Shown here: positions 35,529 through 59,621 of the stretch, piece by piece
How positions within the stretch are numbered: position 1 is the first letter of the stretch
How the letters are laid out: each line of letters begins with the position of its first letter
Assembly: GCA_029964075.1 (NCBI GenBank)
Contig: CM057149.1
Location: 33,066,900-33,130,899, forward strand
Reading direction: 5' to 3'
Length of the DNA stretch: 64,000 nucleotides
From: Patiria pectinifera
Taxonomy: Eukaryota > Echinodermata > Asteroidea > Valvatida > Asterinidae
Notes under the pieces: model-generated
Told to the model about the DNA's origin: nothing
The model's input: only the letters and a program-made list of their open reading frames with translations
Databases searched by the model: none
Program-made: the position numbers and the translations under genes

Positions 35529-38523
35529 CTAATACTTTCGATCCGTTAAATCAGTGAAACTTGTACCCTGACTGGATAGTGGAATATCACCTCTTGAGCT
35601 GGATTCAGTGCCGGTTCCAGATACCCCTCTCACGTCATAGGCATCCTTCTTGCATCGGATGAACATGTCTCGCCAGACCTGGCGCACGTCTTGCTGTCTA
35701 GCGCAGAACAGGATGAAGATCATCAGCCCTTGGAGCGAGTTGAAGATTGCAAAGAGGACCTGAAAAGCAAAGCTTGCGGTCTGGAAGACCGAGAGAAGCC
35801 CAAAGACCCAGGTCAGGCCAAGGAGGACTGAGATGGCAACGGCGTTCTGCAGTCGGCGGATCATCTCTTGGCGCTGGCTGGCGTCGGAGGTGCTCCCGAT
35901 AGTCTTGCGGATGCATAACAGACTGCGCATGACCAGTGCGAAAATGATGAAGTTGAAGAGGAGCACCAAGCCAATCGGAAGTAACTGACCATAGTACATG
36001 GCGTTACCTGGCTTCAGGAAGCAGCTAAAAAGCATAAAGCACAATAAATAATATTCTCAAAACGGGGTATTAGAGCGAGGTGTCCATTTTACCATCATGG
36101 TCAGTAATATGTCCTCATAGGAGCTTTAAATCTAGATAAAATTATTTTTGTTCGACATATTGGCGGTACAGACGTCTATACAGCAAAACCGTCAGATTTA
36201 GAACTTTGGGTTTGTTTTGTCTCATTATGACCAAACAATTTGTACAAAACTTAGAGAAACTCCATAAGATCGACGTTTCAGGGTGTGCACACGTGTGGTG
36301 ACTTGACGCGGAATGACCCTTCAGCAAGATATACATTGATTCCTCACCCACATCAGTATTATAAAATACATCCACGACTTTCTGTTTCCCTTCATTATCA
36401 GCACGCTGGTAAAGCTGTAGTGGATTAATAAAAAATGACATCGACCATATCGTTTTGTTAGGAACCAAGAAAACTCCTTGATATCGGTCTTTTTTCCCCG
36501 GTGTTCTGGTGCGATGTGATGTGACGAATTAAAATAATGTATGTTGTGGTGTGGTATACGATGCATTGTGCTTTACAAAGTCTTTTCTCCCGAATTGCTT
36601 ACTACAATCGAAAGAGAACATTGTTCCATTTGACTTACCCAAGTGAAACCGGATTTATAACAGCTGCGGCATATCAGATCCGGGCTTTTTTGCCAATGCA
36701 TACGTTTACCACTACAATCAGAATGATTTTAGCTGAGTACTTACTAATTGGGGTTGTCATACTCTGTGTAATCAGCAGCAAGAACAATAATGACAATCAG
36801 CAATGGAAGACCTAGAAAAAAAACCCGGAAATTTAATGTGAAAATTGTCAAATCCTACCGCAAAACTGTTCTGGACATTGTTAAATGGTTAGAATTCGAA
36901 CTGCGTAATGACTTTTCAAATCGTTCAAGAATCAGTTGCACTGTAGCCTTCCTGTTTGCGACCTATCACGTTCACTGAGTTTGTTAGATTACTAAGACCT
37001 ACTGCGCCTGGGATGCAGTGCCTGGGATACCGAAATCTACAAAACAGATCTATTATTTGTAGAATACGGGCACTACAGGGTGTCCTGAAAATAATAGTGC
37101 ATGTAAACCCCGCCATTTTCGCCAATTTACAACCGGAATTTAATGCAAATGTTTACACGATCTTCAAGATTACAGATTCAGCGGGAGAATACCGTTTGTT
37201 TAATTAAGATTGCTTCTGTAAATCCAGAGCTATGTTGGAATAACCACAAAGCCAAAAAAAAATTCTGTGCCACTTTTAGGAAGCGAGTGCTTCAAAGATC
37301 AGACAATGCCAGTGTGGCTCTTTTGATAAGATTATCCCTATGGGTGTAAGACAAACATTCCAATATTATAGGGTTTTGTTCTTATGTTGAAACAATTTAA
37401 TAGTACAGACAGGTTCACTTCTTTAAAACTAAAGAGTTCAATTTCAATTATATAAAAATAAATATTGCACACTCTGCTTAAAAATGTTAAAATCACTAAG
37501 AGTATAGTTTGGCTTTGCCGTTATTTAAACATATCTTTGGATTTACAAAAGCAATTATCTCAATAATACAAACGGTATTCTCAAGCAAAATCTATTACCT
37601 TGAAGATGGTGTAAACATCCGCAGAAAATGTTGGATGTAAATTAGCAAAAATGGAGGGGTTTACATGCACCATTTTTTTTCAGGACGCCCTGTATAATGA
37701 ACGGAAGTGAATGTCGTTTGTGATTTTAACCAACCTATTTTAGTATAAGTCAAAAATGATTTATTTAATCGAATAACAGTGATACAAATCAATGTTTTTA
37801 GATTTCTTTCTTTTTGTTCACAAACTTTGCAATTGCTTTTGAAGTTTTAGACCTACAGAACAGATCACTCAAAAATCCGTGCCCAACTACAAGAAAATCA
37901 GGAATACCCTGGGCAAGAGTAACAGCTTGGCAATTGACGGAATATACCTTAATTGATCAGGAAATAAAAATCTTACCCCAGCTAGCGATCGATGCCTTGA
38001 GCAAGAAACGAGGCACGTTGGCGTTCAGGACCTTGACAAGGATAAGGTAGATGTTGGCGGCTTCAACTGCCATCCAAGCGATGGAGGCTAAAGTGAAGTA
38101 GTGAATCAGCAAAGCCACAATGATGCAACCCGGCCTAGAAGCCTTGGCCTCGATACCCACCAAGAAGATGAGGTAGAGAGCCAGCAAAGCAAAGCACAGG
38201 CTGATCAGGATCTGCTGGGGACGCTTGGTACGGAGTTTCCTACGTAAACGGTGGAATACAATGTTCACCAGTTTCACATTAAAGTGAAGAGCACTTGAAA
38301 CAATTTTCTTAATACTATAACAACATGAACGAGGCGGTGCAAAATAGTTTAGAGTAATGCCTTGTTAAACTGACTGCTTTGATAAGATAGATTTAGAGTA
38401 TGAGCGATCTTACTTGCTATAGAGGTACGTAGTCAGGGTGATAAGTAGAGCCACAACAGAGGCAGCACAGCCAAGCTTGCTGATGATGTCCAAGAAAAGA
38501 CTGTCTTGTTTCCCGTGAATATC
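35529..38523 (-). other. Copy B: seven-transmembrane (adhesion GPCR) domain and C-tail
   Basis: TM1 is 38414-38523 (SKLGCAASVVALLITLTTYL). TM2-TM3 are in 37977-38239 (KLRTKRPQQILISLCFALLA; AVEAANIYLILVKVLN). TM4 is the 67-nt exon 36745-36811 (GLPLLIVIIVLAADYTEYDN). TM5-TM7 and the tail are 35529-36024, with FLKPGNAMYYGQLLPIGLVL, the TM6 hallmark VLLGLTWVFGLL and the TM7 hallmark FNSLQGLMIFILFC. The TM3 cysteine (RPGC) and the ECL2 cysteine (NYC across the splice) give the conserved disulfide. The tail has about 50 residues, is Ser/Thr-rich and ends DRKY. There is no RasGAP. No clear AATAAA signal was identified downstream of the stop. Confidence 0.92.
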
Positions 38524-41500
38524 CTGTCCGATGAGTGGGCACAAAGTCACGAAATCAATATTCCTTTGCATCCGCTTTTGAAAACCAGTTCCTGACTTAC
38601 AATCATTTCCATTGATAAGAGATGGCACTGTTAATAGATTATTTGAATTGGCCAAGAAAGAAATATGTACTTTTTTGTGCTTACCACAATAACAGCGAAG
38701 CTGGTTAGATGGTCACACAGACACCTGATGACGCCATCGGCAAGCGATTCATGCCTGCATCCCTGTGTGGACCAATCACCGTGTCCGTTATTGAGGGTGA
38801 AATTCCAGAACACGCACTCGGCACTACCGACCGTCTCATTCTTGCTGCTCACCTGCCAAAAAAAATGAACGAAACTCCTCCGCAAAATTAATTCAAAATT
38901 GTCTCATCGGGTTTTATGGATGCCTCAAGGAGTTCGGGAGTTGAATAAACTTAAAATTGAGGTTTATACTACACAGGTCGATATCTTGCGTCATTAGAAC
39001 AACGCAAAAAAAAAAAATAATAATGTCAGTGATTATCACAACTTTTGTCATATTTTAATCAATTTTTCTCCCACAATCTTTTTCCCTTAATGTTGAAAAT
39101 CATCGGTGCAGGCCAAGGGCGGATCCAGAACACAATTTGGGGGGGGGGGGGCAAAAAAATTTGGTCCCCCAAAAAAGTGGGTCAAAAAATTACGGCGTGG
39201 GGTTCGGGGCCCGCTTAAGGGCCCCGAAAAAAATTTTGATTCTAGATGCTCTGTGGTGCGATCTGAGGCAATTTCTGACCACTTTAACCAATGTTTTTTT
39301 AGGAAAAGATGGTGGTGTACTCATTGCCTGCCTTTATTGCGATGTCACATAAAAAAATAAAAAATTGGTTTCGTGTTTTTTTTGGGGGGGGGGGCATGGC
39401 CCCTTTTGGCCCCCCCCCCCCCCTGGATCCGCCCTTGGTGCAGGCTTTAATTAAAGAGAAGCGAGTCGTAGAAACAATTTTTAAATTCGTTCATAATGAT
39501 TTGCAGGCGTACTAATTTCATGTGCATGCTTTTTCCTAGCGGTTAAGATGAATTTTTTTAACAGGTAAAAACAGAATCCACATGGACCCCATGTTGTTGT
39601 GTATCCGCATTCAATAAGAAGCATTCATACGCAAGCTTCTCTCCAGCTTCGGCCTCATATCTGAATCTCCAAATACTGCCCTCATATTATAGTATTCGAT
39701 TTCGATGTAGAACGTGGACTCATATTGAGCCCAAGCTCTTAAGTCTACGATGTCTGGTAAAGTCGGAGATTAAGTCGCAGTTTCGACGTGCTTCTTACAA
39801 ACTTACATTGAGAAGGCTGAAGACGCTGGTAACAGGCGTGGTCAGATTGTCAATATGTACGCCCTCTACGGTAGCACCAATGATGCGGCTACCCACCGCG
39901 CGCCTGAATCCATCCTCACGCCAAACCGTATCATTCGGTTTGGGAGAACGAAACAGCCTGCTGTTCTGATACAGGAAGAAACTCACTGGAACCTGATCGT
40001 CAGCACCTGTTTGATGATACAAAGTAAAGTTGTCTATAGAAAACTCATTGTCACGGTTATTTCGCTTTTTTTACTGATCGTTCGTTTGCACAAATTTACT
40101 ATTGATTGGTAGTATAGTACTGAACCGGTTCGAATTCGATATTCTTGGTTTTGCAGCGTCGGGACGGGCGAGTTTAAAAAGGAGTGGATATAGCCTATTC
40201 GGTGGTGTTACCGGGTAATCCTTCAGCACAAGTGCTGCCCGATCCATAAGTGACCGTCAGTAAGTCAATAATTGGTTAGTCAATGTGATAGATGCAAGGG
40301 TGACTACAGCCTGGACTCTAGAACCATGACAAAGGTGCTTGGTTACCTCCAGGGATAAGTTCCAGGATTTCAGGAGGAAGAAAAATCGATGTTTCGGCTT
40401 CCAACTGTGGATCCTCTTGGGTGAACACTGAAATCCGATTCTCGTTTAAATCGTCATCCGTTTGAGAGTCCGGGGGTGTGGACGCGAAGCCGAGACCGCT
40501 GGAGAGAGAGCTCGGGGGGAATGAGACTGCAGTGACGGCGATGCTACTCTGTACCTCGGTGAAGTTACTGGCACCACTGAGCTGCCTTGCGTTGACGAAG
40601 GACTCTAGCGCCGTGACGATCCGAGACGGAGAATTGTCATCGGCGGTCTCATCAAAGGTGGCTTCCTCATCGATTTGTAGGATGTTGTTAACTATCAGGA
40701 CGAAGCCCGAGGTGACCTACCAAACACAGAAATATGTTCGAAACACCGTTACAGTTCGTTGAACATATCTGAAGTTCCTTAAACAGTTTCCGTTCAATAA
40801 GAGATTTCACTGAAGTCTCGTTTTAGCTGCAAGCATGCATGCATGCAAGCTTCTTTTCAGCTATCCAATTTCGAGTATGATTAGTATCTAATGACGTGTA
40901 CGACCGCTAATAAGCATCATCAAAGTTTGTAGATGCAAGTCTCATTGACTAATCATTATTGAAGTCTGCAATAATGTATTATTAAGCCTATTGTAAGCTT
41001 GCAAATTCGCGCACTTGACTTTGGTGGCCTAAGCTCATGAACAAGTCCAATCATACAAACAGCCCAAAAAATCACAAAACAAAATACCCCCTAAAAGACG
41101 GCTTATCCTTATTGGATATACGGGGTTATTTTTGTTTGACAAGAAGACACTGTGGACTTTATACCTCAGATGATGTGATGTTAGAAGCTACCACGCTTTC
41201 AAGAATTTTAGCTACTGCAGATATTGCCATGGGCTGGATTGCGCTGGCGTTTGATGTCACAAATGCAACTTCCTCGACCACGTCCTCGACATTTTCCGGC
41301 GTCACTGGCATCTGTTGGTTCACAATTAGTGAAGTTTCCGGTGATGAGTTGTCTTTATTTTGTAAAATTAGTGATAACACCCAAAAATACACGGTCTTTA
41401 CTCGAATCCTTAAATGGGAAAATGTCGGACATAATCGTTGCAAAAATCAATCGAAAGAAAGTATTCAACATTTCTTATAGAGTCATGTTTGAATCTGAAA

Positions 41501-44500
41501 CAAATTAAGCCTGGATATTGTTCACTAAAACTTAGTGATAAATATTTGGTTTGAGTTCATAATTATTTGAAAGTTTTGGTGACATGTGAGGGCTAATAGG
41601 TAGTGGGACTGTTTAACAACAAAAAGTTTAAAGATGCATACCCCTTGCTGTTAAAAATATCAATTTGTTTTCTCCTATCGATTGTTAAATAGGTATGTTT
41701 TGTTCAAACGAAAAAAAACACAGTATATTTCCATTTGGGCATCTGCAACCCCCTGAATTAGGACCTTCATCTTGCGCACTAATGAAGCCGCGTTGCTAAA
41801 GCATAATTATTGTCTGCCAGCCAATAAAAGATGGATTTTTTTTAGCTTGATGTCTCATTTAAAAGTGAATAAATTTATATTTCCTCTTTACATATAGTCC
41901 TCTTTACTTCATACAGCAACATAATATTATACAAACGCATCACACAGCTCGAGCGGGAAAAGAAATCAACAATGTTCCCCTCGTTATAAGCTAGTTTGAT
42001 GTATAGACTGCCACGACAATGACAACAAAACATTCCAAAAATATACATGTATGACTAAAAGAGTAGAGGAAATCAGTTACCATAGACAAGGTTTCAACCA
42101 CACTGTTTACTTGGTCCGGCATCAAAACATAGATTACTTTCCCCACATCAAACACCAGGTTGCCATGCCGAACCTGCAAAATAATCAGACAAAATTGGCA
42201 AATGTCTTAGAAGGAATACCTCTGATAAATATTTCCTTCTGGATCAATTTTTCAAATCAAATCCAAACTCCTTCTGTGTTTGGAAAACAATTTCCTTTTT
42301 TTTCCCCATAAATATGCGGGGCGGGTATCAAGAGTGAATTCACATATAGTGAATGCACTCTGACCTCGAGCAAACAAAGCTCTTAATTTCGAGAATATAG
42401 ATATCTTAAAGGCATGTAGGATCGCTTGCATTTATCCGAAAAGAATAACCTACCGAGTTATTAGCAAAACGCTTACTTGGATTAAAGATAGTACTGGTAC
42501 TAAACACCCTGGCTGGCATTTAGAAGAGAAAATGCAGGTTTTTTTCCAACCAACTAATCAGTCATATCAGTCAGCCATGTCAGCGTGTTATTGACGAAAT
42601 CGTGTCTTGTGATTAAAAAGTTGTGCATTTTTCCCCTATTGTTTTCTCGAAAAGTGTAATATTCAATGAGCTGAAAGAACAACAAGTTAGGCTTTGAACA
42701 GTCTCCTATGTATTTCGAGTGGTGTCATTATCGCAAATCAAAAAGCAAATCATCTTATATGCCTTTCAAGCACATTTACCATTGATATACTAAGTGACCA
42801 TAAATTTGAATGTGCCACTGGTGTTGAAGATACCATTAATAAGACCTAGTAATGATGTCTTTGCCGACTACGCCAACTGTACGCAACTCTAAACAGACAT
42901 AACTAGACCCATGGACTGTTGAAAGGGGACGAGTGACTACTCGCCACAGACTTACCTCTGCTTCGGGATTCACACTTCCATCTGAACTGCTTGGCTTGTA
43001 TTCGGGCAGCGTGCAGTACAGATTCGTGTCATCGATTTGACTGACTTCACATGTATCATTTCCTATCGATACGATGATTTCATCAGAAGTAATTGCTGAG
43101 TTTATCCTTTCTCCCTTAGAAAAAGTAAACAAGGTGACGATCATTTTATTGATACGTTTGCATAAATGCTTATCCACTCGATCATTTTACTTTGTAATAA
43201 AACCAAACTGCAATGGAGACCAATTTTTATCATGACGATTTACATAAATGACAGAGTTGATCGTTCGCGCAATTACTGATTTCTCTAACTTTTTGAAGCT
43301 GCCGCGGAAATACAACATTTGCTTTTGCTGTAATTTTCAGAAATGGACCAATTGGGGGGGGTATTTTATAGCAAATATTGTTACACTGACTTGTTTCAAT
43401 TTTTGTGTTCGTATAGATGCTGGAAAACCAAGAAAAACAATAGTCTGGTTCCCTGACTCCACTTCAGATGTAACGGAGCAATTTATAGACGTCAGGGAAT
43501 TGTAAGGTCATGCTCAAAGGTGTGTAATCGATTGCAAAAAAAAAGCTGACAGACTAAATACGGTAAATTGGGGGCATGCAGTATTTGAAGAAAACAAAAC
43601 AGTTTTTACAACGCTGGTCGGCCGACCAGCATTGGAAATTGATACAAATACCACTTTTCTTGAAAATGACAGCACACCAGGTGCCACGATTTTACGGGAT
43701 GCTTTAGACTGTCACTCACTAACAGTCCAGTAATTTCATAATAATTTCGTAGTTCTGTTTTTATGTTTGCAAATGTTGTATATTGCCTTTAAGCACCAAG
43801 TTAGTGGTTTTAATATACGTAAAAAATAATAATTTCCCAGACTGTATGCAATACCAGCTATAATGCTGTTGGCCCAAAGTAAAAGCTCACCGGCGGATCC
43901 ACAACCAAACTTTCCGGGAGGGGCGCAACAAGATATTGGGAATATTTCATTTAGAATGGGGTTGGTCGCCTACGGGGGTTAATGGAACACTCAGAAAAAG
44001 GGATGAGTAAACATTTTTCTTAAACATGCTTCTCACTTGTCAGATGTATTGTTTTAAAAATCGGTCTGGGATGGAGTAGTGAGGTATTACTTCCACCCCC
44101 ACCCCACCACCCCAATACGCAAGAAGACAAGAATTCGAATCGGTCGAATAATAAACACGGCTAATTTTCAATTTTAAAATCATGATGTAAAGGGCTCGTT
44201 GCCATACCCAGGTTAACCTGGAGTTGTTAAATAAATGTACCTTTATTTTCATGACAGATCCGTGGACTATGTACCCCTCCCCATCAAACGGGAAGTATGC
44301 GGGGTCTGGGAAATATTCCAGCATGACGCCCTTTGACTCGGACCACGTCAGTAGCTCAGTCACACCATCCATTATAAAACCAAACGCTGCCCTGTCACAT
44401 CGAAAAGAACGAACATCGGGGGAGGGACACACGATTCTTGTGTCCTGACCTCTGCATTCCTATGAAGGACAGCAACAGTTTGTTTTTGAATATGAGATTT

Positions 44501-47500
44501 ATTCCACACTAATTAAATTAACTTTTTTGCAGGCTAATCGTCCCTTTCAATGACCATGGATGGAATACAAATTGTAGAGTACTTTTTCCGACAGATTTGT
44601 GGTTATTATTTTTTTTTACAATATTCCGTGCGAAGGAGACTTTCAATCAAATGATAATGCACTATCCATGTTTGTCTCAACTACCAAGTTTGACAGTATA
44701 CCATACTTTTTTTTCCCCAATAAAACTTTTAAAGTGTTTAATGTAGTGTATAATAATTTATCCTCTTTTAAAACTTGAGCACAATCATGGGAACATTTTA
44801 AAACTCGAAATATTCGGATTATCAGAATTGGCACAATAAAAAGGCTATTCTTGTTTACAAAATAATGTTTAAACAAAACTACCCCTTTGTATATGACAAA
44901 TCTGTTTGCCAAATCAAGTTAGCTTTTTGCCCTTCACCGACGTCTAATCACTGTATACTCAGTGTGTTACCTACCGATTGAAAGTTGGCAAAATCACTCG
45001 GGTGGGAATCTGAATAAGTGGTGTAAAATCTGTTTATAGCACTAATTCAGATTCGTGAAACGAGACAATCCACTGACATGAAACTGAAGATTCCTTTTGC
45101 GAAAAAAATTGTTATGCCTCGAGCTTTGCTATAACAGGTACAATCATATGGAATAATTTGCATGTGCAGTTGAGAACCATGACTTCTCTAACCTCATTCA
45201 AATCTGAACTACGAAAAAACATTCAGTCAGTAATATGTCTGCATTTATGTGACAAATTTGTTTGTCGCTGCCTACACTGATTATATAAATATACATCTGT
45301 GCTGACTTTACAACTGGGCTGCCATAATAATGAGGAGCCGGATAGGAATGTTCCCGTTTCTCTCCCAAAAGGTTTTTTTTAACGATTTTTTCGCCCTCCC
45401 GTAATCAGCGAATAAATAGAAATATATTTTCCCGATGTCACAAGAAATGTCCAAATTCTTCGTGTTGACTTAATTCACCTTAGGCCTTTAGGAAAGTCTG
45501 TTACCGATGTCGTTTCAAACTGTACATGTTTCTTTGTAATAGTTGTACAATATATATTTAACAAAATATAATAGTTGCTTTACAATCATGCAGTAATCCC
45601 ATATGCTTTTATTCTATTTCACTGTGCTGTATTGTATTTGTAATGTATTGTATTTGTGCATGTGTGTATTGGTAGTGTATGCAGGGCCCCAATGGACCAG
45701 TTTTAAACTGTTTGGTCATACCCTGAGTATAGTAAAGATATGAAATAAATCAATAAATTAATAAATAAATAATAAATTAAACTGTATTATTACATGTAAA
45801 AGATAACAAACTGCTTTATTTTATAATAAATTTAGCATTTGATAGGGAATTTCGTAATATGATTTTCTCACGAGGTACCTCAATTGGCATGCTGACATTG
45901 GAGCAGTAGACTATTATCCTCGGCTGTTGTATGATACTGAAGCCTGCCCCAATTACCGTTATGTCTCTTCCACCCCTGTTGAAGTACACAATGCATAACA
46001 ATACGATAGTGAAGTAATTAGCTTAAGTTTATTTGATATTTGTTTTTACAAAACACTGCCCCCCAAAAAAGGCCTCCAGGTAAACTTTATTTCAGCATTG
46101 ATCGTGAATATAAAAAATGAAAGGAGTGTGCTACATATTTCTTTTTCAATTTGTAATTGTTTTTAGATACCTTCTTTTCAATACCTTATTGACCGCCTTT
46201 GTGTAAAACTCTTTCTAATGGGATTTTCCATTCAGGTTTTAAAATTACGTCACGGTAGGGGCGGATCCAGACCAAGCTCAAGAGGGTTGTTTTCAAGGGG
46301 GTTGTGGTTAGAAGGCATTATTTTTCTTTCTTGGTTTTCCCCTTTTTGAAGCCGATTTTTTTTGGGGGGGGGGGGTTGTTAAATCCACCAGATCTGCTAT
46401 TGCACAGACACAGTACAAGTCGTGGTAACGTTGATATCTATTTTTTTCCAAGAAGCAACAATTTTTAATCAAAGAAATAGATAACATGTACGAGTTCAAC
46501 AAATCTTTAAGAAATATACGCCTGAATGGTTGACAGCGGTGATACGTCACTGATCACTGGGTTTTCTGTGAACGCAAATGTGGACGTCGATGTTCTATTT
46601 GCTCCATCAATGCTCAGTCTCAATGTGCTCTCAAAGCCCACCGTTGAGGGCGGTGTGACACACTGCAGAAATTCATCTGCAACGCTATAGAGTAAACACA
46701 AATTGTATAAAAATAGTGTTATATTTTATCTACAATATTACTGCATACAGTAAAAAAGCAAAAAATCCAGAAACACCTGAAACAACATTCGAAATTCTTT
46801 CTTTATTCAATAAGGCACAAATATTATATGTTGGGTTTTTTTTGGTATTTTTAATTCTTTTTAGAGTATATGATTTAGACCAATATATCCAAACTCAAGC
46901 GTAAGCCATATATTACAAGATTAAATAGGGCATTAAATATCATTAGTTATTCTTCCTGATACATTTCAGATACTCATAACAAAAAAGAGAATATACTGCT
47001 GTCTTCAAAATGAGTAACTACTACGGAAATCAGTCTTGTCTCTGTTACAGTTCCGTGACAGTACCTAAATAAACAAGGAAGATCGCCAAAATATGCTGAA
47101 ATATCTCTGCCGGTCATTAGGGAAGATCCGTAGATTTTCACCAGCGTACCTCCAGCCTCGGGGCCAACTACAGGTGTGAAGTAGGAAATTCGAGGATCCT
47201 TGGGGAAACAATTGGACAAAGACCTTAAATATCATAAGAACATCATAAGATCTTTGAGTAAGTATGTTCAGTCTTTAAATAGACCAAGTGCCGGATCAAG
47301 GTTGTGGGAGGTCCTTGAGATCAAAGAATAGGGGAGACCCAACGCAACACAAACCTTGGAGACTTTCGTCCGGTAGTGTCGCCCGAACCTCTGTGTTGAT
47401 GAGCCTCAAATTCATTCAGTTGGTTGAGAAGACTGCCTGCGGCTTAAGATGTGTCAGTCGAATTTACGTGCGTCAACCACGGGCAAGTTTCTGCTAAGTG

Positions 47501-50500
47501 TGTTTAAAATTACACTCTTTGTATGACTCCATAATATGCTCTTTTTAAAATGTTATTTACTTTGATATTCAAAAATTTGATACAAAGTGAAATATTTAAA
47601 AATTGTGCGGTTGAAATTTACTTTCAAATACACACAAAAATATGTATTTGACAAACATAATGGTTTATCATAATTTGTCAAATGTATAAAAACATAATTC
47701 TCGATTGGGAAGTTCTTGGATTGATCCTTCAAAATGTCAGGACACCAGCTCCTCGATTTTAGGACCTTAAATTTCTTGACATTACAAGTCATTTTAAAGT
47801 AACAGTAGTGGAAAGAGGTCGAGGATCTGTATCTTTTCGGTGTGTCCAAATACCCACTAAAGCACAAACATGTGCACACATTCATGTGCTTCTTTTGTCC
47901 TCAGATTATTATAATACCCATAACTGTGTGTTGTTTTAAGACACCGCAATTTCCAAACGAATCAAAAACTGTGAGGTAGTTCTTAAGAAATGCCGTCAAC
48001 ATATTTTGTACATTCATGGAGCGTTTTGTGCTAACAATTATTCCACATGTACCTTTATTAAGACATTGGTTTGGAGAGAACTTTATGGTAGCCGAGTGGT
48101 TAGGTTCATTGACCACTGATCTCGCGCCCCGAGTTCGAATCCCCATGTTTCTTTGTTTTGTTTTCAACGCACACGTTCATACACCTGCTATAAGAGAGTA
48201 AGATTTTATTTGGTGTCATTAAACACCATTGGTAAGCTTCAAAGTTAGGACTGTAAGCGAAGTCCAGAATAGCATCTTCATAAAAGTACAGGGTTCGTTT
48301 GGCTGATCTTGGCAGCCTAGGCTTAGGGTGGCGCCTGGACTCCTTCCTTTGAATGTGACTGGCCTTCGGGTTATAGGCCTATGAATGGACAGGGGAGGAG
48401 GTGTGGTGGGCCTGGAAACCCGACATACCTGAAGAGTCCATCATAGAAGTTGGTAATAGTTCATTAAGTTGCATAGCTAAGTCCGACTCCATAATGTTTG
48501 GTCAACACAACCAAATGTTTTACACCCTTTTTTCACTGGACAAAGTTTTGATAAAGATCGGGAAACGGCGAATTCTTTTTCATGAATCAATTCAAATACT
48601 TGTGCGACTTGTGTTTATCAAACAAAGGTTACTTGATATGAGATGTGTTAAATCACAGACTTGGAATTATTTTGATGTAATGGGTTCCATTATGTGGAAG
48701 AAAATACCAAACATATTTTCTAGTGCGGCCATACAATATTTGGTGATGCCTGCGAGACGGTATAATGTTGTTGGAGGCACATGGCCCCTATAGGATTGAA
48801 GGAACTTAGTCAACCAGCCTCGGATTCCTGCAATTGAATATTTCTTCAATAACACTTGGTATCGAAACCTTTTGAAGCTGGGTTGAAATACTGTAATCAG
48901 TGGGGTTTAGTAAAGAAAAACATTGTATGAAAACAATAGATATTGTATGATAACAGTAAATATGTATATCTTTTCCCTGGACGCTTGTCCCAATGTCAGG
49001 CAGATTCCTTAGGGGTTAACTAAATGTAAGGAAAACGGTTGCGGAACGTAACTTACTTTGAAGTTAAAGTTGACTGTTCCTGAGCTGTGTTGCATAGTAC
49101 CATCTGCACCCGTGACTGTCAAAGTAACCAACTCGGCTCCTTCACTTTCTGCTCTCGTTCTGCAGCTGACACTGAAACATAAAATGATAAGTTTAAAATA
49201 AATGGTGGTCGAGCAAAACTCGTTAACTTCATCGACTCTGGAAAATAATAACATTTTCATGTTAAGCACAAAAATGTATATTTTAAGATTCTACAATATT
49301 CAACAACATATGCACACATTCCGATGTTGACTAGATTGTGAATTGAGAATTCTGCGGGGACATAAAATAAACATTTGATTAGAAATTCAAACATTGTTAA
49401 GCAAGGCATACCGACATTGCCTACAAATATATTTTGGGAAAAAGTATTATTACTAACAAAGAACACTATACATGTATAGATAACATTGTTCAATAGAAAG
49501 GTTAAAAAATGTTAACAAAAAGTTGAAAAACTGAATAGCTGAACATTGGTCAAAGCTTGAATACAAAGTATAATGTAATGTCCTTGCATGAAGTATGATT
49601 TGACCCTACCTTGCTCCAATTTGGTAGTCTGAGCTTAATCCAGCCAGATCACAGGGCTGATTGCCAACCATCACTGACACGACATCCTCAAATCTCCGAC
49701 CGATATCAGTTCCCATCACATCTATGACTGTGTTGCCTTCAATGGGTCCAGTCAAGGGAAATACCTAATGCGTGATTTTAGAAGCAATAATTACATAACA
49801 CACCAGAGCAAGTACATGTAACATGAAACAAGCATTTCAATACAACACATTATTAGAAAAGATGCATTGGTAAATGCTCTTGAAATTTTGGTCAGCTTGG
49901 TGGCTAAAATGCAGTCATCCATACAGACCTACTTTATATAATAGATCCTACACCTTTGATTAATGAAGTCATAAAAATGATTTTGTTTTTCATCTTGCAC
50001 AAGACAAAATTTCCCTTTTTTCATTCTGTCACAAAGGCAGGTCGAATGAATACAAGGTGTGCTTCATTTGGTGGCAGTATTCTTGGAATTATAATGGATA
50101 ATTCCAACATGTTGACAAGTATCCTCGCCTGGAATATTAATGGAAAAATATTCAAGATACTTCGAAGCGAATAACATTCAACTGGAGAGTTCTATATTAC
50201 TTACCTCGCTCATAACTGGACCAGGGCAGTTCAATCCGTTATCCAAAGTCACCTCATTTTCCCTGCAAACTTCAATCAGTTTGCAAACACCAGACTCGCT
50301 CGGCATGGCACCACACCAAACACATTCGAGCGCTGGGCGGGCTGTAACACAACGGCTGCAGTCTGGCTTCTGGACTTCACACTTGTACAACGTCACTATA
50401 TGAGCAGAATACAAGATAATCTCATGTCTTTCAACTCGATATGTTAAAGAACAACTTCCAATGCAAAACTGTTGATAACAAACGAAGAAAAGCATGTGAA

Positions 50501-53500
50501 GAGTTTGTTATAAAAACGAGATATATCCCTTTGAAAAAAAAATGAAACGTTCGCACGGTTACAAAATGTTATAGAATGAAAAGCATTGCAACATCTGTCA
50601 CTAAACATCGTCTTCTCTTTATTTTATTCCTCTATTCGATATCGACTGTTGGCAGCCAGGAGTGGGTGGGTGTGATTCTTAAAGGTAAGTAAATGACGTT
50701 GATCACGTTTTGGAAATAAACTCTTTATATATAAAGATTTAAGACTGACGAAAGCGTGAATCTCCTCAATCAGTCCTTATTCCTTACCCTTATATCCATG
50801 TATGTCATTTAGGATGTGCGCAACACCGCTTGTGTCACTCCATGAAACAGACAGTCCCACTTCCATCTCTGGTTCATCATTGGAGAGGTAAGTGTACTGT
50901 TGAAGGCAAGCAAACAATCTCACCTTTTAATACCTGAAGCTCAAAACATCAACATTGTGTCCGGCCAGTGTATAAAATAAGTGATAACTTTCATTCTCAT
51001 CAAGGAAATTAGCAATCCAAGGCTACACTGTAAGTTTAAGGATAACCTACAGCCTTCTCTCGGCATGTGATCCTATCTCCATCACGTTCTGCATTAACAG
51101 CCTGAGGTGATCCCTCAACATCTAAGCTGCACTGATAGCTAGAAATCTGCACATGGAAAACAAAGGGAGTAACAACCAAAAATCTTTTTTGCAAAGTTAA
51201 TAAGTGAGTCTGGAAAGAGTATTAAAAACTAAGATTTACTTAGCAGTATAACCCCCATCATGCATGCCTTTCATGATCTGATAGACGGGGCTTAACGTGG
51301 ACATCAGTTACAGACTGACATTGTTTTTGTTTGTTGTGTTTTTTCTTCAGACATTAATAAACAAACCTCAGCTTCGTCTGGCAGGTTTGTAGTCATGACA
51401 GTGATGCTCCTCATAATGTTATCAGGAAGCAGAACTTCAGCAGTCTGGTTCAGCAGCTGAGGGCAAAACTCAGGTCCTTTGACTGCAGAGGTGGTTGGAT
51501 TCTGTAGATAAACACCGAGAAACAACAAACAATGTCATTACCTCCAAAAAAAAATATACATCTGCTTCAATTTGGAAATTATGATCAACAGAAATCCGAT
51601 AGATTAATTATCTTATTTTCAAAATAAAAATATAATTTCAGATACTTCCACGTGTGCTTAATGGAAGGAGTACATGACAATTAGTGTCGTTTTCAATAAC
51701 TAATGCGCAAAAACGTATTAACTGAATGGTCAACATATAGGATTCTACAATCAAGAGAAATCAGCAAAATAATAGGGTTTTTCCCTCAATATTTGTCTTG
51801 GCTTAGCTCGTATATGTTTGTTCTCACGTTATTTCCGGTAATGAAGATTTCATTAGGTCGTGTGCATGTGGAACTTTCATGAGTACATCTGTTCTCAAAG
51901 ACGCACCAATCGCAGGCCCAGCGACTACCAACGCAGGACTCACAGCTACGTAAACAAATAAGGAATTGCATATATTCAAAAATTAAAAAATATATATCAT
52001 CAGGCAAACGTTCTAGGGGAGAAAACATGCATTTAAACAACCTAAAGGAAAACACATTGAATTTCAAATACAACTGATTAATAGGGTATATAAACTCGAA
52101 TACTCACGAAGTGTGAGTTGAACACTCATAGAAGTAGAAGTCGGTGTCTATGAATTGAACTGAAGTTTCAGATGACTCAACACTCAAATCTACTCTTACC
52201 GCATCATCTAAGCAATAAATAAGAACAGATCTCTGCATTTATTAGTTGAAACAGACAATTACAAAAATAAGCGTGTATTTAAAATTGAGTTTTGTGGGTA
52301 CCAAATGCAGAAATCATTTTCATGCTGACAGGAAGCAAGTCGGTGTACCATATTGTACTGCCTATGAACACATTCTCTAAGTTGATATCCTCTTGATAGG
52401 CCCAATAATGCGATTGAATGAAAAACGACACGCTGGTTCACAAGCATCAGTTCATTCTAGAATGGACAAGACGGAAACTACAGGTCAACTTTTTGAATGT
52501 TTGCTCTGTATATTTTTGCCCTGAATAAATTCATATGGATGTCTCTTATTGCACTTGCCTCCTTGTGGAATGGCAGGTATCCCATCACTAGGAGGTGACG
52601 TACACTCTAGTACTTCACCATTCTTCGTAGCTGGAGATTCGAATGACCCAAAATGACATTCATAACTCTGGCCTGTCCCTAGATCAGGTAACTGCTGCAC
52701 AGTCAGGGTGATCTAAAAGTGAAAGTAAAAAATATAGATTTAAATACTAATATTTATTTTATTAATATTCAATGAACTCCAAGAGTTAGCTCCATTGGTC
52801 AGGGGTACTAAAGACAGAGTTGAAATAACATTTGGTGAGCTCAAATGACTGAGAATGAGCGACAGGTATAGTACATAAAGCACGACATTCTGTATCATTC
52901 CGACGTGCGAAAAAAAAGATGGTGTGACATGAAATATACCGTTCACTGTACGAAGCCAAAATTCATTCAAAGTACAGCAAATAAATTGCGCACAATTTTT
53001 ACTCATCACAATTAAGAAGGCAAAGTGCACGGAACAATATGTGAAATTATATACAGGTGAAAACCTATTTAAATTCTGGAGATCCCTGGGAAGCAAAACT
53101 AAAATTATTAGGCCCTGTACATGTACGTCGTTTGTACGATAGACGTCGCATTGACGTAAAATATTTCCACACACCTATCCGCCTATATGGATAAGTCCAT
53201 AACAAATCTGCACTTTGAAGTAGGTCTAAGTGTTTAATTTCTAAAGTAGGTTTCATATTTGTTCCTATAACGGATGCAATAAAGATCTAATTTAAAAACA
53301 TCTGTCTCTCACCTGTTGCTCAGTGACTGTAATTGGCAGGTTACCATAGGGAGCTACATTGGTAATATTAATGCACTGAGCAGCATTGTAGGCCAACCAT
53401 CGAGTAGATACATCAGGTGATGGACAGTCTGAATATCTGGTACATCTGGGGAGGAATTCAATGTTATCATATGACTAGGATAGCTTGGTAGTCGACAGTG

Positions 53501-56500
53501 ACCAAAAGCCAAAAACCAAAATTGAAAAATGAAATGTCATACTTTCCAGATTTCATTGAGAATCAGTAGGTCATCACTAAATTAGATGGATCGAACGAAA
53601 TTTGTTTCACATACAAATAATTACAACCGCAGCTCATCGAACTCTGTATTCGTCATGTAAATAAAATGGAAGTTATTTTAGGGACACGATCAACAACTAA
53701 AGTGACCAACTATAGGAGCTCGCCCAATAAATGACTTCCCTTCCAGAGTGCACAAAAGCTTATTTTTTTACCTATACAGGGTGACCAAAAATCATTGCCT
53801 TTAAAAAGAAAAGGTCCGTGGATTTTTATGTTTTGGGTATCAGATTAAAGCTGAGAGCTATTTCTTTTAAATATCGAAACAATCATGAAAATAGCACTTT
53901 GGGTTGCTGAGTAAACAGTAATTATGTAAAAGTGGTTATTTTTCATCCTGTACACGAAAAATTACCACAGTAAGGGATTTTCACTGTACCTATTTGTGCA
54001 TGTCCAAATCCTCACAAACAACACGGCACATAATATGACAAGAGTACAAATTAATTTGATGGAAATACCTTTTACTTTCCACCCTAATAGGTATCTCATC
54101 CTTTTTAGTATCTCAGTCCTATTTTAAACCTTTTCAGCATCATAAATAATTATGTCCAAATATTAAAGACCAATGAAGGATAATTGCACAGTAGGCTTAC
54201 AGTAAACTGTATCACTGTTTGAAGTATTATGAAAAATGACTTCTTTTACAAAATTAGCATTTTGTCAGCAACCCAAAGTGCTATTGTCATGATTTTTTTC
54301 AGTATTTGAAAGAAAACACTCTCAGCTTTAATCTGATACCCAAAGCATAAACATCCACTGATCCTTTTTTTTTTTGAATGCAAATGTTTTAGGGTTGCAT
54401 TTTTTGGGGTACATCATTAATATAGAATGGAAAGTTTGTGGTAACACCGTGTCTTTTGGGTTGTGTGGTTTTGACTCCGGCGACGTTTCGAACAGTGTGC
54501 TCTGTTCGTCTTCAGGAGACTGCCGGGCTCTTACTGGTGTAGTTGTTTTAGTAGTGGAGGCTTGGATTCAGCATCAGGGGGATTCTTCAGGAGGACCATT
54601 ACAATGATACACCATGAATGATGCATTTCCATACATGTTGCACCCCGTCTGAGTGGTGTCTACCGTTCTTACACCCCTCAACTCACTCACACACTTTGGA
54701 GACATCCCGTATGACTTACCTTCGTTCCAGAGTGCACCATCCACAATATGGGTCTCCATCATTCCCTGCATCAGTCCCAATACACGTTTCACATGTAGTG
54801 TATTGGCCACAGTTCTCCCCGCGAAGCTTCACCAACTAAAATGAAAAACATATTGTACCTTTTCTTTACAATTTTAATGTTGAGAAAAAAGTATTGATTT
54901 CATCATCAGGAAACTTTTTTTTCTTAAAATCTACAATCTGTTTTTTTTTAGTTTACGAAGCAAAGGAACAATGTTTATTGTGTGCATTTGGCCAAATTTG
55001 TCATGCTTTTCGTTGTTATAAATAATACTCAAAGCACCGAATGGTTTCTGTGGCTTTTCATAAATGACTGGAAATCTAGTTGCTGTTAAAAAAAACACAT
55101 TTGCTTGTCAGCTTAGCTTTTGACTTTTCTGTCGACAAATCTGTCAACTTTTCTGCTATTGCGAAGCCCAAGGGGGACACTAAATGGAGCAGAGAAAGTA
55201 ATTATTCAGTTAAAAGCATTCCTCCTCGGCAGGTTAGGTATGCGCTTACCTTTTGTTCCGTCAAGAGAAGTAGTACACGTGTTGTTTCATTAACCTTGAC
55301 ATCTGGCAGAACTGGACTGCTATCAACGCTAATGCGTTCATAAAGTCGGCTGGTAGTGTAACTTTCCACATGAATCTAATGACAAGATGCATAATTATGA
55401 CACATAAATAAATTGAGTAACACTTAATGAAATGTATGGATGAATGGTCATTCAATTGCGTGCATAGCTGCACATGACACTTAAAAAAGAATCACAGTGA
55501 GCAAAGCAGAACGCTGAATCCCATTTAGTACGTGGTTACATAACCATGAAAATGCAAATCATAAGTACAATGGAAAGTTCATTAAAGCCTGTACAACCAA
55601 GACGTACAGGGAGACATGTGAAGCTTTAGTAATAGTTGTGGCAGCAACAAGACAGCAGCCATTTTCTGCATTGCAGATTCAAATTTTCACCGCCGCCGCC
55701 CCACCGTCCACTCACAAAAGCTACTATAATCAGCATCACCCGGGGGTAGGAGTTCTTAAGGTGTAAATTTATAATGCATTAAGTTGCAATGAGTATGCGA
55801 GGAAAAAGAAGATCATAGGAAATGACAGATAAAGGTTAACTTAAATATTATTATTCAAGCTCACGACAATAATTACTTGAATTAAAACGTTTTGGTAGTT
55901 GACAAAGCATAACGTCAACAGGTCTTTAACCAGATAAAATTGTCATCTGATATTTTCTAACTATCGATATAAAAGTAAACAAAAGGCACTTGATGATTAA
56001 CAAAGGTCAAGAATCTTATAAATCAGATTAAATTATGGATGTAATCTATGTATTAAAAAAGCTAAAGCAAAAGTGTGATAACTTTAATGTATTAATATAT
56101 AGTAAAAGTTATATTTAAGAATTATGAAAGGACTCCTTAACCCCGCAAGTCATGCTGTAATTCAAAATTACTTATTTAGTGAATAAATGACAAGAAAGAC
56201 ATAAATGGGACTTAAAAGTTATATTTAAGAATTATGAAAGGACTCCTTAACCCTGCAAGTCATGCTGTAATTCAAAATTACTTATTTAGTGAATAAATAA
56301 CAAGAAAGACATAAATGGGACTTAAACAATCTGTTTACACCGACATTGTACATAGAGAGTTAAGAAGTTTTGACATGGACATGGTCAACCCGGCATGCAC
56401 TGCTTGCCTTGAGTTTTTGTTTATGCAAGCCAATTTATTAAGAGAAACCAAAACTAGCTAATTGTTTCGCATTTTAAAAAAAATCAATGCGTCGTGATAG

Positions 56501-59500
56501 TAACCAAAGTCTCGAGTGCAAGGGGTGTGAACGAAATGGTTTGAAATAAAACTGTTGCTACACATTCCAATTTAGGCTCTACGACGACTTCAGCCACACA
56601 TTTAAATCGATTAGGGATAAATTACCTTGAGTAAATCTCCTGTCGATGTTCCGATTAAAGCGATGGTGTGGTTGACTTCTATTGTGGTTATGATTGATGA
56701 CATGAGAGTACCAGGCAGCTCTAGAATTGCCGTGGATGGAACGGGGGCTATGCCCTTGGCGTACTTGAATAATGGCGTTTGAGTAGCATCATTGGTAACG
56801 GGTATGCAGAAATAGCGATCCAGAATGGGAATCTATAACGAAAGTAGAAAGAAGAAACATGATTAAAACAATTAAAGCAATATCGTGGTTCGGCAGTGGC
56901 AATTATCAAGACATGTGAAACCAGGAAGTTCAAGGAAAGTCGTTGATGAAACGAGAATTTCAATTCAATTTAAATTAAGGGTTTTATTATCGATTCGTCG
57001 CATCCCAAAAGCTGAATTGTGGATGATATATAATAAAGTACAAATATAACAAAACATTTGAATTACTTCATACAAAAAATGAATCGTCATAACAAATTAA
57101 TAGCTATTAATTAGAAATAAAATGAGTAAGATGTCAAATAGAATAGTAATATAAGGACACACATAAAGAATATATATTTTATCTTCTCAGTAAACCAAAA
57201 GCAACATTCGTGCTGATGAAATTACGGTTGTTTATAGAATAAGCTCAATTGAAAATAGAATTTTCGATTTCTATGTTTTTTTAACAAATTATCATACCCT
57301 TATTCACGCGTTACCAATCCTATATCAGAAAAAAAGAATGAATGCTATAGCGTGTTTATGCAACCACATTGATGCATCAGCCAGGGGACTACAAAGAAAG
57401 CTGCCTTGTTTTTACCATCATCTATGGTTCAATTACCTATAGTTTGCACCATTATTGCAGAAAGAAACAATTTGAACCTATCAGCCTTGAAATGAAATGG
57501 AGAAGCGGGCCGGACAGAGGGCTTGACTTTACACGACAGGTTTGCTATGCATCTTTTTTTTTTTTTTTTTTTTTTTTTTTTGGGGGGGGGCATATTAAGG
57601 GCCTACAGAGTAACAGACATCAAGAACAGAAAAGCAATGGCAAAGAAACGCACACTGGACCTGGTCCCCATCTTGAAAGATGGAGGCGTCGATATATTGT
57701 CAAAATGTTACATTTTATCCTTTTTACCACCATTTTGCAGTTTCTCCTCTTCGCTATTCAATATATTCCCGCTCGTTGTGAAATAACAGCATATTTTGCA
57801 CGTAGGCTATAGTGCTTGTTTTACGATGACTAAGATGACACATTATATTTTAGGTTAAGCATGCAACCTTTGCATTTGGGTTGGGTTGGGTAATTGGGTT
57901 GGATTGGGTGTACGCCACAAAAGTACAGGTAACGCACCTTTTGATTCGCAAGCGTGCTATTTACAGATGCATACCTTTTGCTCTTCAAAAAGTAGATTTT
58001 GTTTAGTTTGTATATTTTTTTCATTTCATTTTATGCATTTTAGGTTAGGCAACCTGTGCATTTGGGTTGGGTTGATGTAAGTCGGGTTGGACTTACGCCA
58101 CAAACGTACAGGTAATCCGCCTTTTTATTCGAAGACGTGCAATTCACAGATGCATACATTTTGCTCTTCAAGAAGTGGATTTGTTTAGTTTTTATATTTT
58201 TTCATTTCATTTTTATGCACAAATAACCCGCTCTGCGAGAGACGGAATTGTTGTCTGGCAGCCAATAATTCGAAAATTGTAAAGATATAATTCAATAACT
58301 AAACAATTGTGGATTTTTGAGTAAATTGTCTCATTTAAAAGTGAATAAATTTTATATTGCTGGGCAAATAGAAATTAAAAAAAAAATCGAGGTGTAACTC
58401 GAAAACAGCACGGGGAATAAATCTTTGAATCTCATTACAGAAATGACAACATCATTCTAAATACGCTTCTGTACTCACCCCGAAACTACTGCAAAAAGAA
58501 CCCTCCAAATAGTCAACAGAGTACGTATTTCCATCCTGAATACATCCCCGCACTGCTTCTCTGAAGGCATCCAAGATATCCGTCATCCTGTACACACACA
58601 ATGCTGAGTGATCGATGGGTACATCACTGGTACCCGTAGCTCCTAGGTTCTTGGCAAACACAGCATACAGCACCTGCTCGTCTGCATGGAGACCCAATGA
58701 TGCCGCTAGATCAGGTCCTGCTGGTCCAAAGTGAGCTGCTTGCACCAAGCTGTACACACTGCCATCTGATCCACTGCACTGTAGGGTAATTTCTGTGTAT
58801 GCATCTAGGTTTGGACCGCCTTGACAGACTCTGCTTATCTTAGAAACAAATCGGTTGGAATTCATATCCTCGCTTTGGGAGGCAACAAAATAGGTAAATA
58901 TACCATGGACTAATCCTAAAACGTACCTAATTCGAAACGATGCTGTTTTTGCAGTTGAACTAAAAGAGATGGAATCCCTTTCAATAGATGCCGACAACAA
59001 TGGGATTTTTTGAAGGTCTCTTCTTGTAATTGCTGGAAAGGGAAAATTGGAAAAAGTATTTTCACCAGTATAAGTAACAACCACATAAAGCATTTGTTGT
59101 CCACCACTTCCTGGAGCTACCAGACCAACAGTGGATGCGCCCTCAAACCCGGCAACGTAAGGAACCGACTCCCCCATCATGTTACTGATATCCTGTAACT
59201 GTCGTAACTGACAAATACCATCATACACACCGCCACAGGTTATCAAACTGTTTGGCCGAGTACTGTCAAATACCAGTATCTTGTTGTAGTTATTTGTAAG
59301 GTGACAGGGCATCACACTATCTGGCCTGCTGCCATCACAGGTTGAAACATTCTGTATCTCGTCCAAACTACTGTCCAACCTGTACAACCAATTGACAGCC
59401 CCAACATACACATCGCCATGGTCACTCAAGGCAAAATGATTGAACTTTGATGCACGTCTTTGGGGTTCTTCCAAAATATCAGGATTGCCAAAGCTGGCCA

Positions 59501-59621
59501 ACTCATAGTCTGACATGTCTCCGTGCCACTCAGCTGATGTGGATAACACATTTACGCAGATGACGCTCCAAGACAGAGCAATTGCCCACAAGAGGGCGGA
59601 GTGTCTCCTACAAGACTCCAT
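35529..59621 (-). CDS. Plexin-ectodomain adhesion GPCR, copy B (complete, spliced)
   Basis: Predicted surface receptor of about 1,861 residues from 28 coding exons. Exon bounds, 5' to 3': 58479-59621, 56626-56832, 55250-55375, 54720-54835, 53313-53445, 52559-52712, 52108-52207, 51828-51945, 51367-51501, 51051-51146, 50788-50896, 50205-50395, 49610-49764, 49057-49171, 47065-47198, 46520-46684, 45879-45975, 44241-44459, 42956-43114, 42081-42173, 41165-41311, 40347-40716, 39807-40006, 38685-38852, 38414-38523, 37977-38239, 36745-36811, 35529-36024. All junctions agree in phase, and the total of 5,586 nt is divisible by three. Domain order: signal peptide, Sema (to about residue 490), PSI1 (about 500-545), IPT1, PSI2 (about 660-700), IPT2, PSI3 (about 812-876), IPT3-6 (877-1255), GAIN/GPS (1256-1550), 7TM (1551-1800), tail. 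Plexins normally end in a RasGAP; none is seen here. The start ATG has A at -3 and G at +4. The family calls are firm; the ligand (semaphorin or other) is unknown. The weakest boundary is the acceptor at 41311. Confidence 0.88.
37076..37692. mobile_element. Fold-back mariner-like MITE in copy B (orthologous insertion)
   Basis: Same element and same position as 1197-1821, with flanking TA at 37074-37075 and 37693-37694. Shared occupancy shows it inserted before the tandem duplication. Confidence 0.75.
38685..41311 (-). other. Copy B: GAIN domain and GPS autoproteolysis site
   Basis: Exons 41165-41311, 40347-40716, 39807-40006 and 38685-38852. The first is helical in character (TPENVEDVVEEVAF), as in GAIN subdomain A. 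The GPS exon 38685-38852 contains CVFWNF, DWSTQGC and CLCDHLTSFAVIV. All four GPS cysteines, both tryptophans and the H-L-T cleavage triad are present, so the protein should self-cleave between Leu and Thr and expose a tethered agonist starting TSFAVIV. The first acceptor (41311) was chosen because it keeps phase 0; an alternative at 41352 breaks frame with the preceding exon. Confidence 0.88.
39114..39437. mobile_element. hAT-type MITE, G/C-tract rich, in copy B
   Basis: Counterpart of 3249-3560 with longer homopolymer runs. TIRs are CAAGGGCGGATCCAG and CTGGATCCGCCCTTG. The 8-bp duplication GTGCAGGC sits at 39106-39113 and 39438-39445. Confidence 0.82.
45030..45785 (+). mobile_element. 5'-truncated LINE tail in copy B intron
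   Basis: Orthologous to 9180-9895: the same WNNLHVQLRTMTSLTSFKS segment and AATAAATAAATAA tail, so the insertion predates the duplication. Confidence 0.62.
48087..48230 (+). mobile_element. tRNA-derived SINE, copy B intron
   Basis: Counterpart of 12231-12379 with a better B box (GAGTTCGAATCCCC) and A box (TAGCCGAGTGGTTAGG). Shared position shows insertion before the duplication. Confidence 0.62.
53775..54411. mobile_element. Fold-back element, copy B specific
   Basis: Two inverted arms of about 145 bp share GGGTATCAGATTAAAGCTGA and TAGCACTTTGGGTTGCTGA. The left end is TACAGGGTGACCAAAAA, mariner-like. Copy A shows the uninterrupted site near 18024 (TTACCTACATCATTAAT). Confidence 0.68.
54420..54635. 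mobile_element. Second copy B specific insertion beside the fold-back element
   Basis: About 0.2 kb, with ACTCCGGCGACGTTTCGAAC and CTGTTCGTCTTCAGGAGAC, a motif pair reminiscent of the 3' parts of Penelope-like elements. Absent from copy A near 18035. The family call is tentative. Confidence 0.4.
55408..56323. repeat. Copy B specific insertion with 110-bp tandem duplication
   Basis: About 0.9 kb absent from copy A (junction near 19682). Its right end consists of two near-identical 110-bp units, 56104-56213 and 56214-56323 (each starts AAAAGTTATATTTAAG). No coding potential recognised. Confidence 0.65.
57848..58220. repeat. Tandem duplication of about 190 bp in copy B, with GGGTT-rich patches
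   Basis: Two diverged units, each with TTTAGGTTA, a GGGTTGGGTT stretch, ACAGGTAA and TTGCTCTTCAA. Copy A has one unit (about 21163-21355). Confidence 0.6.

Follow-up and report, generated by a model that had tools for sequence, protein, structure and literature searches.

We analysed a window of 64,000 nucleotides from the sea star Patiria pectinifera (assembly GCA_029964075.1, contig CM057149.1, positions 33,066,900 to 33,130,899 of the forward strand; all coordinates below are those of the window). A receptor gene on its minus strand, here copy A, very probably codes for an adhesion G protein-coupled receptor (GPCR) that carries, as its N-terminal module, a complete plexin ectodomain of the type found in the Met-LP receptor tyrosine kinases, and it forms a tandem pair with a second copy, copy B. 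We hold this view, derived from sequence comparisons, with high confidence, which covers the gene structure and the filing as an adhesion GPCR taken together.

Exon structure of the receptor gene

Copy A starts with an ATG at 59621 and terminates with a TAG ending at 35529. It comprises 28 exons and 1861 codons without any internal stop. The spliced sequence contains one stop, the terminal one, in the coding frame, compared with 96 and 130 in the two other frames, and all introns are bounded by GT-AG except intron 6, which is GC-AG. The coordinates, strand and exon count of the frame-consistent 28-exon chain described in the initial annotation of this DNA are thus those of the present model. 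The plexin and GPCR pieces were already in order on the minus strand in the stop-to-stop listing of the window.

The exon model was obtained with a small exon finder based on splice-site and codon scores, two runs of which were merged by hand; the exon of transmembrane segment 4 (TM4) and a longer last exon were put in by hand from an earlier run. A high exon penalty led to the skipping of small real exons (16 exons), and a low penalty or strong bonuses gave small spurious exons. The segment 43498-43424, at first taken as an exon in the training list, was later dropped.

Several properties of this model count against it. The training pieces of the exon finder were chosen by eye from the same locus and some of them were given bonuses, the splice scores are weak at the acceptors of exons 13 and 21 and at the donor of exon 16, and the donor of exon 6 is GC. 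Since the exon finder was trained on its own locus, its own score is no proof, and Patiria miniata proteins found later were used as the test. In tblastn, Patiria proteins that had stayed outside model building matched 26 of the 28 exons, and a chance chain of exons was judged unlikely for this reason. P0121, a Met-LP of Patiria miniata with a plexin ectodomain and a kinase, matched exons 1-16, 18 and 19, and P0002, a Patiria adhesion GPCR, matched exons 21-28. The ends of the matches fall mostly within a few bases of the modelled exon ends, with several overruns (about 55 bases for exon 27), and the exon pairs 7/8 and 25/26 were each covered by a single match running across the intron. Exons 17 and 20 gave no tblastn match and both rest on the protein alignment. 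The 12 tblastn queries (with matches listed for four of them) and the 17 plexin-side and 12 GPCR-side proteins of the alignment were all chosen by hand.

Table 1. Exons of copy A and extent of copy B in the window (aa, amino acids).
Feature	Position	Strand	Evidence
Copy A exon 1: signal peptide plus the larger part of the Sema propeller, aa 1-381	58479..59621	minus	exon model; tblastn (P0121 1-387, 87% identity)
Copy A exon 2: Sema, aa 382-450	56626..56832	minus	exon model; tblastn
Copy A exon 3: end of Sema, aa 451-492	55250..55375	minus	exon model; tblastn
Copy A exon 4: PSI1	54720..54835	minus	exon model; Pfam; tblastn
Copy A exon 5: PSI1/IPT1	53313..53445	minus	exon model; Pfam; tblastn
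Copy A exon 6: IPT1; GC donor in both copies	52559..52712	minus	exon model; tblastn; copy comparison
Copy A exon 7: end of IPT1; one tblastn match with exon 8	52108..52207	minus	exon model; tblastn
Copy A exon 8: PSI2	51828..51945	minus	exon model; Pfam; tblastn
Copy A exon 9: IPT2	51367..51501	minus	exon model; Pfam; tblastn
Copy A exon 10: IPT2	51051..51146	minus	exon model; tblastn
Copy A exon 11: IPT2	50788..50896	minus	exon model; tblastn
Copy A exon 12: PSI3	50205..50395	minus	exon model; Pfam; tblastn
Copy A exon 13: IPT3; weak acceptor score	49610..49764	minus	exon model; tblastn
Copy A exon 14: IPT3; last exon about 90% identical to Patiria Met-LPs of the 46.65-Mb contig	49057..49171	minus	exon model; tblastn; alignment
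Copy A exon 15: IPT4; from here ancestry shifts towards the P0153/P0156 type	47065..47198	minus	exon model; tblastn; alignment
Copy A exon 16: IPT4/IPT5; weak donor score	46520..46684	minus	exon model; tblastn
Copy A exon 17: IPT5; no tblastn match	45879..45975	minus	exon model; alignment
Copy A exon 18: IPT5/IPT6	44241..44459	minus	exon model; tblastn
Copy A exon 19: IPT6	42956..43114	minus	exon model; tblastn
Copy A exon 20: last IPT6 strand, then linker of probable GPCR origin; breakpoint inside (about residue 1239-1243) or at the 3' border	42081..42173	minus	exon model; alignment; 13-mer scan; shuffle test
Copy A exon 21: GAIN subdomain A; weak acceptor score	41165..41311	minus	exon model; tblastn; alignment
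Copy A exon 22: GAIN	40347..40716	minus	exon model; tblastn
Copy A exon 23: GAIN subdomain B	39807..40006	minus	exon model; tblastn
Copy A exon 24: GPS, CLCDHL/TSFAVIV	38685..38852	minus	exon model; Pfam; tblastn
Copy A exon 25: TM1; one tblastn match with exon 26	38414..38523	minus	exon model; Pfam; tblastn; hydropathy
Copy A exon 26: TM2-TM3	37977..38239	minus	exon model; Pfam; tblastn; hydropathy
Copy A exon 27: TM4	36745..36811	minus	exon model (added by hand); tblastn
Copy A exon 28: TM5-TM7, cytoplasmic tail, stop TAG	35529..36024	minus	exon model; Pfam; tblastn
Copy B: second copy of the tandem pair; colinear over exons 2-27 and over the 146 bases of exon 28 that are visible; its 3' end lies outside the window	1..22782	minus	tblastn; copy comparison

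Domain architecture and class of the protein

The Pfam search of the spliced protein returned Sema, PSI, TIG_plexin, TIG_2 and TIG in four stretches, followed by GPS (PF01825, 57 bits, with CLCDHLTSFAV at residue 1538) and 7tm_2 (PF00002, 142.6 bits). Against the PDB, residues 47-1209 matched the full Plexin-A4 ectodomain with an E value of 4.9e-132 and residues 1394-1817 matched ADGRG6 with an E value of 3.6e-59. No GAIN model was present among the Pfam matches of the spliced protein; for this domain, residues 1238-1553 align, as sequence only, to the extracellular region of ADGRG6 (6v55, E = 1e-13), and there is an alignment to the ADGRG6 entry 21du as well. The order Sema-PSI-IPT-PSI-IPT-PSI-IPT(x4)-GAIN-GPS and seven-transmembrane (7TM) core, as first read from the exon chain, was therefore recovered by the domain searches.

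The hydropathy profile exhibited a signal peptide, then 19-residue windows that all score at or below 1.41 for starts from about 61 to 1550, and eight partly overlapping segments in residues 1558-1806 that we read as seven helices. In comparison, the profiles of P0121 and of P0153, another Met-LP, peak at 2.6-2.7 just past the equivalent IPT6, and that of the Plexin-B-like P0137 peaks at 3.1 at residue 1262. By this analysis, the single membrane helix that follows IPT6 in plexins is absent from copy A. In the same way, tblastn gave no match in the window to the residues beyond 1290 of 81 proteins (P0121-P0201), where a kinase or RasGAP part was looked for, and no kinase domain was found among the Pfam matches of the spliced protein.

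The 7TM part contains the motifs GLTWVFG and NSLQG, and the stretch TSFAVIV begins with the T of the HL/T site. We take this site and stretch to be of the type used by cleaving adhesion GPCRs, the stretch being tethered-agonist-like. The sequence features of adhesion GPCRs (class B2) that were looked for, a 7tm_2 core, a GPS with HL/T and a GAIN domain upstream, are all present. Plexins and Met-LPs are represented by their ten-domain Sema-PSI-IPT ectodomain, and the membrane and cytoplasmic features of both are missing. We have therefore filed the receptor, which would be plexin-like on the outside only, among the adhesion GPCRs, its N-terminal module being new to them.

Junction exon and tandem copies

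The homology with the Met-LPs P0121 and P0153 stops at residue 1239, just before their membrane helix, and the homology with the GPCRs P0001-P0004 starts at residue 1237-1244. Since Met-LP similarity ends where the helix would begin and GPCR similarity starts there, the breakpoint would be located in or beside the 93-bp exon 20. This exon (42173-42081) opens with the last plexin IPT strand, VRHGNLVFDVGKVIY (residues 1225-1239), which is 73% identical to the Met-LPs P0153 and P0156, and it contains no membrane helix. In comparison with nine GPCR relatives, residues 1243-1255 rank second among all 13-mers of the protein, with a score reached by 308 of the 149417 13-mers of proteins P0121-P0202. 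When residues 1240-1255 were shuffled, the similarity score with the GPCRs was reached by 1 of 3000 shuffles and that with Met-LPs and plexins by 142 of 3000. The nine GPCR rows of these two tests were chosen from the twelve aligned, P0006, P0007 and P0008, which differ there, being dropped. In our view, the end of exon 20 more likely came from a GPCR. On the other side, the last 16 residues of the exon match the helix region of P0121, P0122, P0124 and P0156 at 7 of 16 positions, which speaks against a chimeric exon, and the GPCRs tested reach at most 5 of 16 identities there. Exon 20 may thus come from a Met-LP in its entirety, in which case its helix would have eroded, losing its hydrophobicity, and the fusion would lie in intron 20.

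The locus is tandemly duplicated, a point missed by the initial annotation. Exons 2-27 and the visible part of exon 28 of copy B align with copy A without gaps, and all visible splice sites are kept, the GC donor included. The copies are 86% identical in exon 1, a value that goes up to 89-97% for exons 2-11 and to 96-100% for exons 12-28; such a rise towards the 3' end of the gene is as expected with a recent exchange of the 3' part and suggests gene conversion. The tandem duplication (about 36-37 kb, window 1-25456 against 35879-62919) includes upstream sequence. Between the receptor copies lies a retroelement (28615-31811, minus strand) with a reverse transcriptase match (PF00078, E = 6.1e-24) and a weak tyrosine-recombinase match below the cut-off (PF00589), a domain pair that is presumably that of DIRS-type elements. 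Each copy also carries one intronic tandem repeat, of 110 bp at 56103-56326 and of 126 bp at 17141-17396.

Exon 1 of copy B (22782-21623) is frameshifted near 22170 by a cluster of small indels, which may indicate a pseudogene or an assembly error. The ratio of replacement to silent rates (dN/dS) between the copies, with exon 1 excluded from the totals, is 0.36 over the 1364 codons of exons 2-28 and 0.32 for exons 2-19. For the GPCR part, exons 20-28, it rises to 0.62 on 24 differences (8 silent and 16 replacement), which alone is no proof of constraint, and the first 180 codons of exon 1 gave a dN of 0.089 and a dS of 0.170. The frameshift and these last values count against our main reading. 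Together with the small number of differences in the GPCR part and the absence of the fusion protein among the Patiria and Acanthaster proteins listed, the frameshift and the ratio of 0.62 would fit a genuine fusion gene that does not function or is in decay, as a by-product of Met-LP turnover, a reading which concerns the function and not the structure. We consider such decay rather unlikely, as copy A is open across 28 exons, the GPS and the helix motifs are kept, and the dN/dS of exons 2-19 is 0.32.

The comparison of the copies bears also on the reality of the junction. That two unrelated loci were wrongly joined during assembly might be suspected from the 5' ectodomain, which resembles one Met-LP type when the 3' part resembles another, but the window contains no N, and the same junction is found in both copies, which have diverged by 0-14% per exon with no loss of a visible splice site. 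An artefact of this kind is extremely improbable. The same junction in both diverged copies also indicates that it is older than the duplication.

A single fused receptor gene, as initially proposed, rather than two neighbours is well supported at the DNA level. Exon 20 has an IPT strand without a helix, and in the shuffle test the GPCR pre-GAIN stretch is the better fit for its last 16 residues. The tblastn search gave nothing in the window that could serve as the kinase or RasGAP end of a plexin or Met-LP gene of its own. In introns 19 and 20, the only ones scanned for this, no signal-like start common to both copies was found from which an independent GPCR could begin, and the arrangement is kept in both tandem copies. 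Under a reading with two adjacent genes, the first would code for a plexin ectodomain that is truncated, secreted or single-pass and ends in intron 20, and the second, an adhesion GPCR, would start upstream of exon 21. Such a split, to the detriment of a fused gene, would agree with a single AATAAA in intron 20 (41359), with the short hydrophobic tail followed by a stop that read-through past exon 20 gives in copy A, with the Met that is the first codon of exon 21, and with the resemblance of the end of exon 20 to the Met-LP helix region. However, the hydrophobic tail is missing in copy B, where read-through meets a stop after two codons, and the donor of exon 20 and the acceptor of exon 21 are kept in both copies. 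Adding the shuffle test and the scan of the two introns (starts further upstream being outside it), we judge the existence of two genes highly unlikely.

Relatives, origin and predicted function

No plexin ectodomain joined to 7tm_2 was found among the listed matches of three protein searches, in which the subject size was limited to 0.55-1.75 of the query, the candidate lists for the ectodomain and the GPCR half were capped and the matches were read by eye. With the ectodomain as query, 7tm_2 was present in none of the 82 matches listed; with the GPCR half, Sema was present in one of the best 120 of 134 matches, P0007; with the junction, none of the 27 matches had both sides, the best alignment of each covering at most 55% of the query. 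The initial annotation had advised a search for Sema and 7tm_2 in one protein, and this combination does exist in P0007, the nearest case, with a semaphorin-like Sema, the plexin-type combination being the part that found no counterpart in these matches. Its caution about invertebrate precedents was apt in view of the Met-LP kinases, with a plexin ectodomain on another signalling part, and of P0007. Among the papers listed by the literature searches, which leave most subscription journals outside, none was found to describe a GPCR with a plexin ectodomain.

The Met-LP receptor tyrosine kinases, which combine a plexin ectodomain with a kinase and occur in Echinodermata and Lophotrochozoa according to PMC6374515, are the published precedent for moving a plexin ectodomain. 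Like them, copy A has a complete plexin ectodomain (P0121 is 78.7% identical over residues 1-1239) placed on a different signalling part, but theirs is one helix and a tyrosine kinase when the sea star gene has GAIN-GPS-7TM instead. Plexins A and B share with copy A the order of Sema, PSI and IPT across ten ectodomain domains and differ by their single helix and RasGAP. On the GPCR side, the Patiria ADGRG-like receptors P0001 and P0002 are 71% and 70% identical in GAIN-GPS-7TM, whereas their N-termini match Ig, SEA, GPR128_N or PF02494 (presumably HYR) and contain no Sema, PSI or IPT. In a GPS-7TM tree of 36 rows (35 proteins hand-picked from 121, rooted for drawing only, with six long-branch rows), copy A groups with P0001/P0002 (100/99) inside a 27-row set that includes vertebrate ADGRG2/4/6 (96/100). 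P0007 of Patiria miniata, named 'adhesion G protein-coupled receptor E1-like', has a Sema joined to GPS and 7tm_2 and is 54% identical. Unlike that of copy A, its Sema resembles that of semaphorins (Semaphorin-2A gave the best Sema match, E = 1.4e-23), with PSI and IPT undetected, and is thus a ligand-type and not a receptor-type module; in P0007, a related GPCR, Sema was captured a second time and separately.

Eighteen of the 82 ectodomain matches are plexin-ectodomain kinases, named plexin-A4-, B- or B1-like, assigned by equal contig size to one Patiria contig of 46,651,055 bases. The Met-LP family on this contig is apparently large, exceeding the four Met-LPs reported for Acanthaster in PMC6374515. 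Identity along the alignment showed that the affinity of the copy A ectodomain switches between exons 14 and 15: for residues 1-966 the nearest proteins are the Met-LPs of this contig, and for residues 967-1239 they are mostly the Met-LPs P0153 and P0156, with segments 1066-1098 and 1172-1224 as close or closer to others. P0153 and the nearest GPCRs, P0001 and P0002, are all on a contig of 19,640,250 bases, equal size being taken as the same contig. The fusion might have arisen when a Met-LP gene was interrupted immediately ahead of its helix and linked, in frame, to an ADGRG-like receptor gene that was perhaps its chromosomal neighbour, and the first 14 exons might later have been exchanged with other Met-LP copies. 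We infer this course of events because it would explain both the affinity switch and the shared contig.

Plexins signal by bringing RasGAP domains together, and adhesion GPCRs by exposing a tethered peptide. According to PMC4980550, the ring of the plexin A ectodomain is built from domains 1-9, with domain 10 directed away from it and a short link between IPT6 and the membrane. In copy A, the GAIN domain occupies the place of the plexin membrane helix, and the captured ectodomain most likely serves as the sensing head of an adhesion GPCR. The GAIN domain would cut itself at HL/T, the fragments staying attached. The plexin head would then bind a partner on another cell, of semaphorin type or other, the semaphorin being a leading guess only. 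The binding force, ring tension or a shape change would be passed on and loosen the GAIN domain, so that TSFAVIV would enter the helix bundle and activate G proteins; in a plexin, the equivalent event would be dimerisation of the RasGAP domains. We infer from the domain order that the receptor could couple plexin-type recognition to G proteins, and for the route through the tethered agonist the case is evenly balanced. The 7TM part could, independently of G proteins, be mainly a cleavable anchor for a shed plexin ectodomain acting as a decoy, another difference in function and not in structure. A cleaving-type GPS would allow such release of the head, but the motifs GLTWVFG and NSLQG and the TSFAVIV stretch are present, and the decoy appears improbable to us.

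With copy A, the plexin ectodomain gains a third effector, 7TM, beside RasGAP and kinase, and the fusion breakpoint is narrowed to one 93-bp exon or its border. This natural chimera tests whether a force or a ligand can be sensed by the plexin ring when no GAP domains dimerise, and also whether any head suits GAIN domains. It is conceivable, as a tentative proposal, that the gene represents a kind of receptor so far unreported, in which a full plexin ectodomain gates a GPCR and a guidance-type contact cue would become a G protein signal within one molecule. Together with P0007, one group of sea star adhesion GPCRs would then have captured both sides of the semaphorin-plexin pair, and may serve self/non-self or cell-contact recognition.

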